Assembly: GCA_963169655.1 (NCBI GenBank)
Contig: CAUJCM010000001.1
Location: forward strand, 274,312-338,311
DNA from: Patescibacteria group bacterium
GTDB taxonomy: Bacteria; Patescibacteriota; Gracilibacteria; UBA1369
Length of the DNA: 64,000 nt
Direction of reading: 5' to 3'
Shown: one piece after another, positions 23,936 to 64,000 of the stretch
Layout of the letters: every line of letters begins with the position of its first letter
Numbering within the stretch: the first letter of the stretch is position 1
Translations under genes and position numbers: made by a program
The notes under the pieces: generated by a model
What the model saw: only the letters and a program-made list of their open reading frames with translations
Databases searched by the model: none
What the model was told of the DNA's origin: nothing

Positions 23936-25567
<1,632 letters not shown>

Positions 25568-25669
25568 CTAGGAGTCTTGGCAAAATTTAGCAATAAATTT
25601 TAGCAAGGTCGACATTATGTATATAATGCCAACTCTTTTAAATCTCTACTACATTCTGAATGTTATTAA

Positions 25670-25699
25670 AAATAACCACTATTTGTGGTTATTTTTTTT
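25670..25699 (+). terminator. intrinsic terminator downstream of 16S
   Basis: AAATAACCAC-TATTT-GTGGTTATTT plus T tract. Confidence 0.88.
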
Positions 25700-25710
25700 G
25701 TAAAATTAGT

Positions 25711-25738
25711 TTGCATTTTTGTTAGCAATATTTATAAT
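25711..25738 (+). promoter_or_regulatory. promoter for tRNA-Ala(TGC)
   Basis: TTGCAT-16 bp-TATAAT, 20 nt upstream of the tRNA. Confidence 0.65.
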
Positions 25739-25757
25739 AGGCAGGCTTATTGAAAAT

Positions 25758-25833
25758 GGGCTCTTAGCTCAGTTGGTAGAGCGCCTCGTTTGCACCGAGG
25801 AGGTCAGGAGTTCGAATCTCCTAGAGTCCACCA
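25758..25833 (+). tRNA. tRNA-Ala(TGC)
   Basis: 76-nt cloverleaf with encoded CCA. Confidence 0.95.
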
Positions 25834-25954
25834 TTAAATTCATAGTATTCATTTTACTACGTCGACTGTGAATTTTCTTCTCTCGCAATACTCATTTGTA
25901 TTGCTCGGTCAGAAAATTCTTGACTCCTTGTAAAATAAGCACTTTGAATTTAAT
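25833..25954 (+). repeat. tRNA-trailing palindromic element, copy E1
   Basis: ATTAAATTCA...TGAATTTAAT ends, inner hairpin GCAATAC/GTATTGC, conserved TTGCTCGGTCAGAAAATT. Confidence 0.85.
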
Positions 25955-26060
25955 GAGAGCATTAATTTGATCATTAAAATCGCATTTATGTATTGGACTT
26001 AATTATAGAGTATTTTTATCAACAATTTGATGGAAGTATCTTGTGATTAATCTTGTTTTA

Positions 26061-26137
26061 GGGCGATTAGCTCAGTTGGTTAGAGCGCGTCACTGATAAT
26101 GACGAGGTCCGAGGTTCAAATCCCCGATCGCCCACCA
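26061..26137 (+). tRNA. tRNA-Ile(GAT)
   Basis: 77-nt cloverleaf with encoded CCA. Confidence 0.95.
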
Positions 26138-26149
26138 TTAATTTTCTAT

Positions 26150-27082
26150 ATGAATAATATAAATGATTGGAAAGATATTAATCTTTTAGAATTGGACAAA
26201 GTAAAAATAAATGCTTCTTTAGCTAAGGAATCTTTTGATATTTATAGTGATACTTTATCTGTAAATAAACAAAATTATAAAATGTTAAGCTCTTCTGAAT
26301 TTTTAGTGCCTATTTATTTTAATTGGTTAAAAATTATAGATTCTTCTTCTTTGATGTTAAGCAATAGTATTTCGTTATCTAGACAGAAAATCGTTAGGAA
26401 GGCTTTAAATCAGGCAAAGAATAAAGGATATTTTGTAAGAGTTACTAATCCTATTAATAAGGATGATTTTAATAGGTTTAAGCAATTTTATGAAAATTTT
26501 GGACAAGAACATCATTATGAACTTCTTTTGAATGATAGATTTTTTGAGAATCGAAATAAAAGCAAAATGGCTTTATTAGAAATTTATAATAGTGATAATG
26601 AGTATTTTGGTGGTAAGTTAATTTTTATAAAAGATACCACAATTTCTGGTAGTTTTCGTGCTTTAGCAAGAACTAAAGATATTAAAGAAGGGTTTGATCT
26701 TTTATGTGAAAATGCTGTTTATGATTTTGCAGTACAAAGAGGATACAGGAAGCTTACAAGAGGGCAGGATTTTAATTTAAAGGGTGTTCAAAATCGTAGC
26801 ATTGGTTTACTTTGGAACAAACTGAAGTGGGGATATAAACCTTGTTTAAAAAGAAAAACACCTCGAGTTTATGTAGATTTTAAATTTTTAAATAATGTAA
26901 ATTTTGAGACGGTAGCATTTATTTCTATTGAAAATGAAAAAGATCTAAATGTAAAAAATCAAAAGTTAAATTTAAATTTTATATGTAAAAACGGAATTAT
27001 CACTGAGCAAGTAAGAGAGGTGATTGATAAAACTTATTTAACTGTTAAGGTTTTTGACCACGAATTTAAGCGATTAAATTAA
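26150..27082 (+). CDS. FemAB/GNAT-like acyltransferase (peptidyltransferase-type fold)
   Basis: FYENFGQEHHYELLLNDRFFE..., YFGGKLIFI, LLCENAVYDFAVQRGYRKLTRG; ATG at 26150 chosen because the longer ORF start lies in tRNA-Ile. Confidence 0.6.
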   Translation: MNNINDWKDINLLELDKVKINASLAKESFDIYSDTLSVNKQNYKMLSSSEFLVPIYFNWLKIIDSSSLMLSNSISLSRQKIVRKALNQAKNKGYFVRVTNPINKDDFNRFKQFYENFGQEHHYELLLNDRFFENRNKSKMALLEIYNSDNEYFGGKLIFIKDTTISGSFRALARTKDIKEGFDLLCENAVYDFAVQRGYRKLTRGQDFNLKGVQNRSIGLLWNKLKWGYKPCLKRKTPRVYVDFKFLNNVNFETVAFISIENEKDLNVKNQKLNLNFICKNGIITEQVREVIDKTYLTVKVFDHEFKRLN

Positions 27083-28192
27083 CTCTTTAGTTATTCTATC
27101 TAATATTAAAAAGCCTTGTTCAGTTGGTTTTAAGTGAGTAGTTGTGTATTTTAGTTCTTTGGGAATATATTTATGAGCATTCTTCAATAAAATTTGTAAG
27201 TGCTTTCCTCCATAAAGTTTTTTATATTTGTTTAAATTAATACCAATGCTCTGCCTTAATGATAACATAATAAAATCCATTCTTTTAATATCTTTGTCTA
27301 ATTTGTATTTATCTTCTATTAGAATTGGATTTTCTAGATATTTTTCAAAATTTCTAATATTTTCACTAACTTCATTATTTATAAAAGAGTGTCCCCCTAG
27401 CCCTAATCCAAGATACTCTTCTTGATTCCAATATCTGATATTGTGCTTACATTCAAATCCTTTTTTGGCATAATTGCTAACTTCATAGTGTAAAAACTTT
27501 TCTTTTTTTAGTTTTTTGATTAAAAACTTATACATCTCTATTTGCTCCTCTTCTTTTGGGCTATCTTTAATGAAAGTATCAATTCTTTTTGTATCATAAG
27601 ATAAAAAATAGGCAGACAAATGTTTAGGATTAAAGGACAATATAATATCTATATGCTCTTTAAATTCTTCTAAAGTTTGATATGGAAGTCCCATAATTAA
27701 ATCACATCCATAGTTTATAAAGTTACTATCTTTTAATTCTTTTAATACTTGTAAAGTTACGATTTCATTATGTGGCCTGGCTACTTTCCAAAGCGTTTTT
27801 CGATTTAAACTTTGTACCCCTAAAGAAATTCTATTAATTCCAATTTTTTTAAAATATTGAATTTTTTCTGTATTAAGGCTTTCTGGATTACATTCAATTG
27901 ATATTTCAACATTACCATCAATATTGAAATTTATTTTAAGAATATCTATTATTTGTTTTATTAACTTTTTGTCTATTAAACTTGGTGTTCCACCTCCAAA
28001 ATAAATGGTATCAACTTGGTAATCTTGAAATTTTTTACTTTTTAATAGAATTTCCTTTTTTAACGCTTCTATATATACATCTATATAAGTACTTTTATTT
28101 GCGAAAGTTAAAAAATTACAATATACACAAATAGTTTTGCAAAAAGGAATGTGTATATATAGCCCTAAAGTTTTCATTTTATTGTTAATCAA
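27074..28192 (-). CDS. hemW: HemW-like radical SAM protein
   Basis: GLYIHIPFCKTICVYCNF (CxxxCxxC), YFGGGTPSL, GVQSLN; internal ATG (MKTLG...) likely the true start. Confidence 0.88.
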   Translation of the reverse strand: MINNKMKTLGLYIHIPFCKTICVYCNFLTFANKSTYIDVYIEALKKEILLKSKKFQDYQVDTIYFGGGTPSLIDKKLIKQIIDILKINFNIDGNVEISIECNPESLNTEKIQYFKKIGINRISLGVQSLNRKTLWKVARPHNEIVTLQVLKELKDSNFINYGCDLIMGLPYQTLEEFKEHIDIILSFNPKHLSAYFLSYDTKRIDTFIKDSPKEEEQIEMYKFLIKKLKKEKFLHYEVSNYAKKGFECKHNIRYWNQEEYLGLGLGGHSFINNEVSENIRNFEKYLENPILIEDKYKLDKDIKRMDFIMLSLRQSIGINLNKYKKLYGGKHLQILLKNAHKYIPKELKYTTTHLKPTEQGFLILDRITKELI

Positions 28193-28242
28193 CTAGTTTT
28201 TTTAGTTAATTTTGACTATAATATATATAGTATAAAACAAAT

Positions 28243-28482
28243 ATGAAATTGTTAATTTTTCTTTTAGGTTTTCCAATAGCTCTATTAATGATGATTTATA
28301 GGGAGAGAATTGTTAATTTTACTGGTAAAATGACATGGGCTGAACAGTATTTGGGTAGCGGTGGTACATATAATTTAGTTATTATTGTGGCTGTTGTAGT
28401 TTGGCTAGGTTGTATGATGTATGCCCTAGGTAGCTTTGACCAAATTTTTGGTTTGTTCGCTTTTTTATTTGGAAAATCTTAG
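28243..28482 (+). CDS. small membrane protein
   Basis: 79 aa, two TM segments. Confidence 0.6.
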   Translation: MKLLIFLLGFPIALLMMIYRERIVNFTGKMTWAEQYLGSGGTYNLVIIVAVVVWLGCMMYALGSFDQIFGLFAFLFGKS

Positions 28483-28549
28483 TTATTTAGGGTAGAAACT
28501 TGTTGTTCTTGCGGTTTTTGTATGTAATAAAAAAAGTATAAGTTTTTTC

Positions 28550-28577
28550 TTGACATCGTCATAACAATACATATAAT
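28550..28577 (+). promoter_or_regulatory. 23S-5S rRNA promoter
   Basis: Perfect consensus TTGACA-16 bp-TATAAT. Confidence 0.85.
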
Positions 28578-28756
28578 AGGGTGGCTTTCATCGGGAAGAC
28601 AGATTTACTTGTACTGATGGTGGTATTACTGGTGGAAGAGAACATTGAAAATTGGTGTAGTAAAAATAATAATGTAATTAAAACTGAATATATACAAAAA
28701 GTCATTATATTCAGCTAGTAATCTTTATTGATTGCTAGTTAAAGATAATGCAAATC

Positions 28757-31766
<3,010 letters not shown>

Positions 31767-31847
31767 TGATTTGCACTTTATCTAGCAATTAATGAAGATT
31801 ACAATTATTTTTACTACTATCAATTGACAATGCTTTATTAAAAGGCA

Positions 31848-31971
31848 CTGTCTTGGTGATTATAGAGAAAGGGGTACACCTGTTCCCATCCCGAACACAG
31901 AAGTTAAGCCTTTCTTCGCTGATGTTACTTGAACATTAGATTCAGGGAAAGTAGGACGTCGCCAAGACAGT
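31848..31971 (+). rRNA. rrf: 5S ribosomal RNA
   Basis: CCTGTTCCCATCCCGAACACAGAAGTTAAG; terminal stem CACTGTCTTGG/CCAAGACAGTG; ends approximate. Confidence 0.92.
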
Positions 31972-61448: not shown

Positions 61449-61820
61449 ATGACTCATAATAAATATATTTTAATTTTGACTGTAGCTGCATTGATTGGTT
61501 GGCTTGCTTTTTATTTAGTCATTAATAAATTAGATCCTTTTGCTTCGACTGGACTTGCTTTAGCGATGTTTTTTATTAGTTTATTTTTTGCATTGACCTC
61601 GACTTTTACAATTATTGGTTATTATTTTAGAGTTTGGTTTAATAAAAATGAGATTTATTATGATCATATTAATGTCTCAATGCGACAGGGAATTTTACTA
61701 ACTTTAATTACTTTGGGATGTCTTCTTTTTCAATTATTAAGCGTTTTGACATGGTGGTCTGGTTTACTTTTGATATTGTCAATTAGTATGATTGAGTTTT
61801 ATTTAGTTGCTAAGGATTAA
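61449..61820 (+). CDS. hypothetical membrane protein
   Basis: 123 aa, three to four TM segments. Confidence 0.65.
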   Translation: MTHNKYILILTVAALIGWLAFYLVINKLDPFASTGLALAMFFISLFFALTSTFTIIGYYFRVWFNKNEIYYDHINVSMRQGILLTLITLGCLLFQLLSVLTWWSGLLLILSISMIEFYLVAKD

Positions 61821-61834
61821 GTTTATAAAACGGC

Positions 61835-61868
61835 AGAAGCCCCATTACAATTAAGTAATGGGGCTTCT
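61835..61868. terminator. 14-bp perfect hairpin, probable bidirectional terminator
   Basis: AGAAGCCCCATTAC-AATTAA-GTAATGGGGCTTCT; weak T tract on the minus side (GTTTTAT). Confidence 0.65.
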
Positions 61869-61871
61869 TAT

Positions 61872-62866
61872 ACTGTACTTCTAGGTGTATTTCCCACAGG
61901 TAATGTGAGAAAGGCACGACGTTGAAGTACAGTTTTATTTTTTTGCTCGATGCGGATTTCGCGGAGCGAAGGGCTCAACGCGTTATGATCGCGGAGCAGA
62001 GGCATGGTTTTACTTCCTTAATGCCAGGGAAGAGCTTCTATTTTTAATCTCTGAAGCTTAAGAGATCGACCCTTAGAATGTTGTGATAACAAACTAAGGA
62101 GTCTCACTCAGTTCTTATTACTCCCCCGAGTGTAAAGGGAGGTCCTATTTATTTAAAGTCCCTGGACATTTGGACTTGCCACCAAGGTAGTATACCTGGT
62201 GGACTTTTCCCTTTTTGATTAATGTCCCTAGGGTGGGGACATGCTTTGGAAGGTCTCTTAGTAGATAACGATCCAAAGCTTCCGCCTAGGTTTGCACCTA
62301 GGGGAGTAGAAGTTGCCCCTATTGATTAATGTCCCTGGGGCGAGGGCCGAGCTTTGGAGAGGCCTATTAACTCCAAAGCGTCACACTCAGTTTTATTACT
62401 CCCCTGAGCGTAGAAGGGAGGTCCTACTTTTTCGAAAGTCCCCGGACCGTGGGACGTCAAGTCTTAGAATGTACTTTAATACAAACTTTGACTCTCACTC
62501 AGTTTTATTACTCCCCTGAGTGTAGAAGGGAGGAGTGCCTCAATTATTTTATATCCCAGAGGCTTAGGATATTAAACCTTGGAAAGTTTTAAAGACAGTC
62601 CAAGGCTACCACTCGAGTTTTTGTGAACTCGAGTGAGTAGATTTGCTCTTATTGATTTTTGTCCCTAGAGCGAGGGACATGCTTTGGAATGTCTCTTAGT
62701 AGATAACGATCCAAAGCTTCCGCCTAGGTTTGCAACCTAGGGGAGAAAAAGTTGCCCCTATTGATTTTTGTCCCTGGGGCGAGGGACCGAGCTATAGAAA
62801 GTTTTTTGAAAACAATCTAATGCGTCTCACTTAGTTATTTTACTCCCCTGAGTGTGAAAGGGAGGC
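61872..62866. ncRNA. candidate large structured RNA: tandem pseudoknot/hairpin array (strand undetermined)
   Basis: Four copies of CACTCAG-N8-CTCCC-CTGAGTG-N5-GGGAG pseudoknot, three second-type pseudoknots, two ~124-nt duplicated hairpin units, raised GC relative to host, no credible ORF. Confidence 0.6.
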
Positions 62867-62872
62867 CGGCAC

Positions 62873-63538
62873 TTACTCGTACGGTCGCACTTGTGGTGCG
62901 ACCGGTGGTGCTTGCGTCCCAGCTGGAGCGGGGATTTGGCAAGCCCCACACGGTGGTGGGGGGGGCGGTGCCGGCGGCTTGGGACGAGGAGGCACCGGTT
63001 TCGGTGACTCCTTTCGGCAGCAACCGTCATTGATGACGGTTACTGCCACCGACTGCGTCCCCGCTGGAGTCGCAGTCGGTGCTGACTCCGTCGGCCCCGA
63101 CGGAGTCGGCGGGGACGGTGGAGGTGCCGCCGAGACACTCCACCAATGCCCGAGGCCCAGGGCCCCGAGTATCGCCAACGCCACCGCCGCCGCGGCCAGT
63201 AGCCAGGCGGGAACCCCACTTTCGTGGGTGGTCACCACCGGGTTGGTGGCCGGCGTCGCAGCCGGTGCTGGTGCTTGTGGAGGTGCACCGGGCCTGTATC
63301 GCCCAGCTCCGCCGCGGCGACCGCCGCGGGAGCCGCGGCCATCACTACCTCCCCCCTGCCCTTTTTGAGGGTGAGGATAGTAGTGATTGTGAACGGTCGG
63401 GGTCGGAGACCCCTGTGCCGCTTGCCTTGCGGCAGCGGCGGCCCGCTGCTGCTGCAGGGCCATCGCCCACGCAGCAGCAGCGGATGTTCCCCCTTTGTTG
63501 GGGGAGGAATTGGTTTTATTACTGTTTTTTCTTGACAT
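62873..63538 (-). CDS. GC-rich Pro/Ala/Gly-rich single-TM protein of unknown function
   Basis: ATG at complement 63536-63538 with GGAGG 7 nt upstream; TM GVPAWLLAAAAVALAILGALGLGHWW; C-terminal CC and CxxC. Confidence 0.55.
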   Translation of the reverse strand: MSRKNSNKTNSSPNKGGTSAAAAWAMALQQQRAAAAARQAAQGSPTPTVHNHYYPHPQKGQGGGSDGRGSRGGRRGGAGRYRPGAPPQAPAPAATPATNPVVTTHESGVPAWLLAAAAVALAILGALGLGHWWSVSAAPPPSPPTPSGPTESAPTATPAGTQSVAVTVINDGCCRKESPKPVPPRPKPPAPPPPPPCGACQIPAPAGTQAPPVAPQVRPYE

Positions 63539-63642
63539 GACTGTACCTCCTCCCTTGGCGGGAGCCTGGGGGAGACTCCCCAGAAAAGAGTAAAAGTAAA
63601 TCCGAGACCATCCCAAACTTACTTTTACCAAAACTTGTTCAT

Positions 63643-63770
63643 AACAGAGAGAAATTTACCAATAAAAAACGTTGTTTAGTCATTGTTGTAGTAATGGAGT
63701 GATTTATCCTTGATATCGCTACGAATAAATTTTGTAATTGAGGAAATTATTAGTAAATTTTCTCTCTGTT
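63643..63770 (-). repeat. long inverted repeat in leader of the GC-rich gene
   Basis: AACAGAGAGAAATTTACCAATAA (63643-63665) versus TTATTAGTAAATTTTCTCTCTGTT (63747-63770). Confidence 0.85.
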
Positions 63771-63832
63771 TCTATTTGCTTTTTGTCAATGATCTCGCTT
63801 TTTTAAAATAAATGAAATTATTTTAAGGTGTA

Positions 63833-63861
63833 AATTTAACGACTTTATATATATTTGTCAA
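63833..63861 (-). promoter_or_regulatory. promoter for the GC-rich gene transcript
   Basis: Minus strand TTGACA-17 bp-TAAATT. Confidence 0.6.
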
Positions 63862-63903
63862 GTATTTTTTTAAAGTGGCTTTTTTTGCCAGGTAATTCTA
63901 ATT

Positions 63904-63926
63904 TTATTAGTAGATTTCTCTCTGTT
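63904..63926 (-). repeat. third copy of the 23-24-bp motif, upstream of the promoter
   Basis: TTATTAGTAGATTTCTCTCTGTT, direct repeat of 63747-63770. Confidence 0.8.
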
Positions 63927-64000
63927 ACTTTTACTATTTTTCAAAGGACTTAGAAGAAGTATTTCTATTTAAGATGTGATTTTATCATATTATTATTTTC

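Follow-up and report, generated by a model that had tools for sequence, protein, structure and literature searches.

A tandem array of H-type pseudoknots behind an exported-protein gene in a Patescibacteria genome, a possible mRNA 3' untranslated region

Does a tandem run of pseudoknots in a Patescibacteria group bacterium (host genome 1.0 Mb) constitute a large RNA of its own, or does it belong to the message of a neighboring gene? We addressed this question in a 64,000-nt stretch of DNA, hereafter the window, in which a sequence-only reading had described four copies of an interleaved module, CACTCAG-N8-CTCCC-CTGAGTG-N5-GGGAG, as a candidate stand-alone structured RNA on the plus strand. All four modules are present where that reading placed them, although only copy 3 (62,496-62,532) reproduces the quoted module without deviation; in copy 1 the loops are 9 and 4 nt long and one arm reads CCGAGTG, and the variant arms are CTGAGCG in copy 2 and CACTTAG in copy 4. 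Four was also an undercount, since seven further pseudoknots lie between these modules. The array spans 62,065-62,865 and contains ~11 H-type pseudoknots of three kinds (four of type A, four of type B, and three of type C) alternating with hairpins, with one or two hairpins separating the pseudoknots at most places. Read on the minus strand, the order of the pseudoknots is A4, B4, B3, C3, A3, C2, A2, B2, B1, C1, A1. The elements are listed in this orientation, with the basis of each in brackets.

62,828-62,864, minus strand: pseudoknot A4 (sequence and scanner)
62,785-62,826, minus strand: hairpin with UU/UU internal loop (sequence)
62,754-62,787, minus strand: pseudoknot B4, arms GCCCC/GGGGC (sequence and scanner)
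62,720-62,743, minus strand: hairpin CCTAGG, copy 2 (sequence)
62,681-62,717, minus strand: hairpin GCTTTGGA/TCCAAAGC, copy 2 (repeat of copy 1)
62,645-62,679, minus strand: pseudoknot B3, arms GCTCT/AGAGC (sequence and scanner)
62,609-62,637, minus strand: hairpin CTCGAGTT/AACTCGAG (sequence)
62,577-62,605, minus strand: hairpin CCTTGGA/TCCAAGG with CU/UU internal loop (sequence)
62,537-62,572, minus strand: pseudoknot C3 (sequence and scanner)
62,496-62,532, minus strand: pseudoknot A3 (sequence and scanner)
62,456-62,492, minus strand: hairpin GTCAAAG/CTTGAC (sequence)
62,420-62,455, minus strand: pseudoknot C2 (sequence and scanner)
62,384-62,420, minus strand: pseudoknot A2 (sequence and scanner)
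62,351-62,379, minus strand: hairpin GCTTTGGAG/CTCCAAAGC (sequence)
62,315-62,348, minus strand: pseudoknot B2, one mismatch (sequence and scanner)
62,282-62,304, minus strand: hairpin CCTAGG, copy 1 (sequence)
62,243-62,279, minus strand: hairpin GCTTTGGA/TCCAAAGC, copy 1 (sequence)
62,209-62,241, minus strand: pseudoknot B1 (scanner)
62,179-62,202, minus strand: hairpin CCACCAGG/CCTTGGTGG (sequence)
62,142-62,177, minus strand: pseudoknot C1 (sequence and scanner)
62,105-62,141, minus strand: pseudoknot A1 (sequence and scanner)
62,068-62,103, minus strand: hairpin CCTTAG/CTAAGG with UU/UU internal loop (sequence)
61,872-62,059, minus strand: another structured stretch, lying between the array and the terminator (fold z -6.1 on the minus strand, -3.6 on the plus strand)

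Interleaved stem pairs can be recognized by sequence in 11 of 11 modules, with a mismatch or a shorter stem in B1, B2, C1, and A4. On the minus strand, type B pseudoknots read GTCCC-tc-GCCCC-a-GGGAC-(A-rich 10-11 nt)-GGGGC, combining GCYCY/RGRGC arms with GTCCC/GGGAC arms, and the three type C copies are built like them. Type A loops and arms are near-identical in the four copies, the type B loops have AATCAATA or AATCAAAA in common, and the two copies of the GCTTTGGA/TCCAAAGC hairpin are identical at 60 of 61 nt. In several of the hairpins there is a 2x2 internal loop, which on the minus strand consists of pyrimidines (UU/UU, CU/UU, or UC/CU). The repeated CTCCCC/GGGGAG motifs permit rival pairings between modules. 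The stretch at 61,872-62,059 has TCGCGGAG repeats.

This amount of structure is far beyond chance. A scanner limited to ordinary H-type geometry, which was written after the array had been seen, returned 15 non-overlapping pseudoknot candidates in 811 nt of the minus strand, while 200 dinucleotide shuffles run through the same scanner gave a mean of 1.7 and a maximum of 5; the plus strand yielded 11 candidates. Nested folding gave z = -9.5 on the minus strand and z = -7.0 on the plus strand; both strands fold well, and the scores favor the minus strand. The G+C counts reported for 62,341-62,400 (29/60) and for 63,781-63,840 (12/60) are likewise correct, in a window averaging 30.8%.

Covariation was assessed between the seven paralogous B and C copies within this one genome. 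Two-sided, pairing-preserving changes (for example, GCCCC/GGGGC versus GCTCT/AGAGC) occur at 3 of 5 stem-1 positions and 4 of 5 stem-2 positions, or 7 of 10 in total. When the 3' arms were dealt among the copies (5,040 permutations per stem), the observed pairing was reached in only 4 cases for stem 2 and in 120 for stem 1, in a test whose pairing is somewhat favored because the arms were registered by eye. Type A stems exhibited one-sided variation only. By this comparison of paralogues, the B and C stems appear to have been maintained by compensatory change. Taken together, the fold z scores, the shuffles, and the paralogue covariation uphold the claim of a tandem, strongly structured pseudoknot array.

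The array matches no Rfam family, in line with the sequence-only reading, which had recognized no known family: an Rfam scan of the window gave no match, a relaxed threshold gave low-scoring matches only and no riboswitch, and none of the covariance models for GOLLD, ROOL, OLE, and HEARO scored above its gathering threshold in the window. Homologues were not found by blastn in 99 relatives and phages, and a covariance model of one pseudoknot stem plus hairpin, run on 89 genomes of the order, matched none of the 88 others. Exact patterns had no true match in 84,980 species genomes or in viral contigs, although diverged arrays could be missed because these collection scans used exact patterns; the out-of-window matches that were inspected were chance occurrences inside ordinary sequence. 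As for kinship with the 3' ends of RNA viruses, viral contigs and phages gave no match at the DNA level. Literature searches on pseudoknots in tandem, or on structured RNAs of these bacteria, turned up nothing relevant. The array is therefore so far unique and known from one genome.

Loop lengths bear on which strand carries the array. In an H-type pseudoknot, 1-2 nt can suffice for the first loop, which bridges the deep groove, whereas a longer last loop is needed to pass along the shallow groove of stem 1. Minus-strand L1 loops measure 1-5 nt and L3 loops 8-13 nt, the latter consisting mostly of A and U; on the plus strand L3 would be 1-5 nt over a stem of 5-7 bp, a poorer fit or none. Since the loop lengths are sterically ordinary on the minus strand only, they favor that strand. 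A tally of G-U pairs was neutral, with equal totals on both strands: A1 and A2 favor minus, and A4 favors plus, where alone it keeps a G-U pair. Considering the loop lengths together with the promoter, the terminator, and the synteny described below, the array likely belongs to the minus strand.

On this strand, the array lies within the following unit.

63,833-63,861, minus strand: promoter TTGACA-17-TAAATT, the best promoter-like site in 61,700-64,000 (10/12)
63,778-63,794, minus strand: possible boxA remnant GATCATTGACAAAAAGC (sequence; not significant in the window)
63,643-63,770, minus strand: leader hairpin of inverted repeats, arm Y' at 63,756-63,770 (AACAGAGAGAAAATT) and arm X' at 63,643-63,656 (AATTTCTCTCTGTT)
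63,546-63,554, minus strand: Shine-Dalgarno site GGGAGGAGG (sequence)
62,873-63,538, minus strand: GC-rich ORF of 221 aa with one predicted transmembrane helix (AWLLAAAAVALAILGALGL) and a Pro-rich C-terminus whose last residues are RPYE
61,835-61,868, minus strand: terminator hairpin of 14 bp, then GCCGTTTTAT

The promoter has the same position and form in nine syntenic relatives, and counterparts of the leader hairpin fold there as well. The boxA match in the window is weak and not significant; a closer match, AGTCCTTTGAAAAATAG, lies upstream of the promoter at 63,934-63,950, and a second copy of Y' is found at 63,912-63,926. The leader segment with boxA and Y' seems to be duplicated, its two copies (63,912-63,950 and 63,756-63,794) lying on either side of the promoter. 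No trailer arm (Z') complementary to X' was found in the window, where the array occupies its expected place.

The ORF ends 8 nt before pseudoknot A4 and differs from its surroundings in composition (GC 0.67, GC3 0.62, hydropathy 2.33, in a window of ~31% G+C). Its protein has weak, low-complexity matches only and no Pfam family. Against synonymous-codon shuffles, the fold of the ORF had a z of -9.6, compared with -2.3 to +1.3 for 12 control genes, so the ORF RNA is folded far beyond the protein's need. Near-perfect hairpins lie back to back in the ORF region 62,873-63,545, at 63,016-63,047, 63,047-63,081, and 63,081-63,110; coding sequence and RNA folding thus appear to be jointly constrained. 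The whole unit folds at -0.46 kcal/mol/nt, while the genome's own 16S rRNA folds at -0.32.

The gene has positional counterparts. Of the 89 genomes of the order, 77 have a conserved neighboring gene of 123 aa (61,449-61,820 in the window). Behind it, nine relatives from two families (L027, L028, L030, L031, and L032; L040, L043, L044, and L045) carry on the minus strand a GC-rich gene whose product is a lipoprotein or a membrane protein with a single span; in L029 the contig end cuts the locus inside the GC-rich island. The counterpart proteins have almost no sequence in common between genomes and match no Pfam family above the curated cut-off. Where the flank was examined (L031; L040 and L043-L045, by translated sequence), a signal peptidase gene (lepB) lies upstream on the same strand. 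The counterpart genes have a GC3 of 0.57-0.92, versus 0.11-0.23 in control genes of the window, and are hypervariable at one conserved site downstream of lepB.

In these relatives, the unit runs from a TTGACA promoter through a boxA-like motif, a hairpin (Y', X'), and the gene to a Z' arm, complementary to X', beside the terminator. The boxA motif TGTTCTTTGAAA, judged by the consensus of E. coli and B. subtilis rRNA leaders, is exact in L031, L043, and L044, with a combined P of 4e-10 over all loci. A covarying leader-trailer helix is present in eight or nine of the nine relatives: the X'-Z' helix is perfect or has G-U changes only over 15-16 bp in L027, L028, L030, and L031, and over 8-13 bp in L032, L040, L043, L044, and L045. 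These helices differ between genomes and mostly fit best within their own genome, with L043 and L044 sharing theirs. RNAduplex energies for this pairing were confounded by length, and ungapped-helix scores were used instead. Synonymous shuffling gave z scores of -6.7 for L030 and -5.2 for L028, while the coding regions of L027, L031, and L032 are weakly structured. In the minus-strand 3'UTR of L028 (~200 nt), the stop codon is followed by a long hairpin, perfectly paired and GC-rich (GGGGGAGCGGCGCCTC/GAGGCGCCGCTCCCCC); heavy folding of the 3'UTR is thus seen in at least one of the relatives too.

The plan of boxA plus leader-trailer helix is also found at the rRNA genes of these genomes, and by this analogy the relatives' unit resembles an rRNA precursor in layout. 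In the window, the 16S and 23S rRNA genes are ~3.2 kb apart (23,937-31,967), each with a promoter-like sequence and a leader-trailer stem; the 16S gene measures 1,631 nt versus 1,533 nt for its model, and this excess suggests an insertion.

With the best promoter, a Shine-Dalgarno site, an ORF stopping just before the first pseudoknot, and a terminator all on the minus strand, the array is most likely an mRNA 3'UTR. Both the strand and the stand-alone setting given by the sequence-only reading are probably incorrect. Minus is favored by the loop lengths and the synteny as well as by promoter and terminator, and on that strand the array would be the 3'UTR of an exported-protein gene with counterparts in nine relatives. 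We tentatively propose, with a probability of roughly 0.45, that the array is the folded 3'UTR of this mRNA and that its duplicated modules protect the 3' side. Judging from the rRNA-precursor-like unit of the relatives, the mRNA would be processed, long-lived, and expressed at a very high level. From the computed structures, likely strand, gene context, and conservation of the unit, we infer transcription, processing, stability, and protection as follows. Transcription would start near 63,826, pass through the hairpin leader, the gene for a membrane-anchored exported protein, and the ~11 pseudoknots with their hairpins, and stop at 61,835. The array would have arisen by duplication of pseudoknot-hairpin modules and would stall 3'-to-5' exonucleases, shielding the 3' side of the message and standing in for the closing helix, whose trailer arm is absent in the window species. 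The message would then be long-lived and highly expressed, and would encode an abundant surface protein. More doubtful is the wider proposal that the lineage uses rRNA-style transcription and processing for one exceptionally stable, densely folded mRNA of a fast-changing surface protein, and that in one species an array of duplicated pseudoknots has replaced the closing helix, forming a novel type of armor for the 3' end of an mRNA.

The main structural rival to a protective 3'UTR is a separately released non-coding RNA, either cut from the mRNA or transcribed apart from it, with the ORF as a mere neighbor. A structure density at least equal to that of rRNA and the rRNA-like layout in relatives fit such an RNA, but we consider it unlikely because no strong separate promoter lies between the ORF and the array (a 9/12 site occurs inside the array only), the ORF stop is so close to the first pseudoknot, and relatives keep the unit and the gene without the array. 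The main functional rival, which we judge equally unlikely, holds that the pseudoknots are repeated elements that bind a protein or a ligand, with a regulatory instead of a protective effect on the mRNA. Near-identical type A loops and arms and shared type B loop motifs would be expected of a recognition motif, and H-type pseudoknots with an A-rich L3 are common in ligand-binding RNAs. However, recent duplication also explains the identity of the copies, regulators normally lie upstream of the start codon, and no Rfam family matched even at the relaxed threshold.

The remaining explanations fare worse. It is improbable that the locus is a DNA-level feature, namely a mobile or recombining cassette of GC-rich gene and inverted repeats with the array as a by-product or recombination site. 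The genes at this site do share almost no sequence, the arms on either side form inverted repeats, and both G000 and G001 have a contig end close by, but site and orientation are the same in ten of ten loci, arms that vary from genome to genome still match each other in any one of them, and the window shows no transposase- or integrase-sized ORF between the conserved neighbors. A large non-coding RNA on the plus strand is more improbable still: that strand folds well and alone retains the A4 G-U pair, but its short L3 would need to cross the stems on the shallow-groove side, and promoter and terminator point the other way. An assembly or binning artefact, as a contig end ~1.1 kb away and a GC jump from 0.3 to 0.65 might suggest, is barely credible, given that nine other genomes have GC-rich islands at this site and that array and ORF are continuous with the conserved 123-aa gene.

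If the protective 3'UTR is real, it would offer a natural test case for RNA structure setting mRNA lifetime, and it would flag one surface protein that little-known bacteria express with special effort. The array also brings many related pseudoknots together in one molecule, which is useful for folding studies.

We know of no bacterial mRNA with a string of eleven pseudoknots, and found no described family in which a surface-protein message has a boxA and a leader-trailer helix as well as a coding region folded to an exceptional degree. GOLLD, ROOL, OLE, and HEARO are alike in kilobase scale and dense folding, but the array RNA appears to be the tail of an mRNA. tmRNA is also a bacterial RNA with several H-type pseudoknots; the sequence-only reading rightly excluded it, since the array has no tRNA-like domain, no recognized tag frame, and no Rfam match. 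BoxA on mRNAs is known elsewhere, for example on suhB, where it serves repression (PMC5725501). As in the relatives' units, the suhB boxA lies upstream of a protein gene outside rRNA operons. To our knowledge, suhB has neither a leader-trailer helix nor 3' pseudoknots. The upstream pseudoknot domain of tobamoviruses comprises three pseudoknots. Like the array, this domain consists of H-type pseudoknots that follow one another in a message's 3'UTR (PMC4683447), but it belongs to plant RNA viruses, has far fewer pseudoknots, and sits beside a tRNA-like end, whereas the array has ~11 pseudoknots with interspersed hairpins on a bacterial chromosome, and no tRNA-like end was found there. The rRNA precursor, in which boxA is followed by a leader-trailer helix (PMC10250234), shares with the relatives' unit a strong promoter, a boxA-like motif, and that helix. 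It differs in that the unit encloses an exported-protein gene instead of rRNA, that the helix has to compete with an additional local hairpin for the leader strand, and that in the window the array stands where the trailer arm would be expected.
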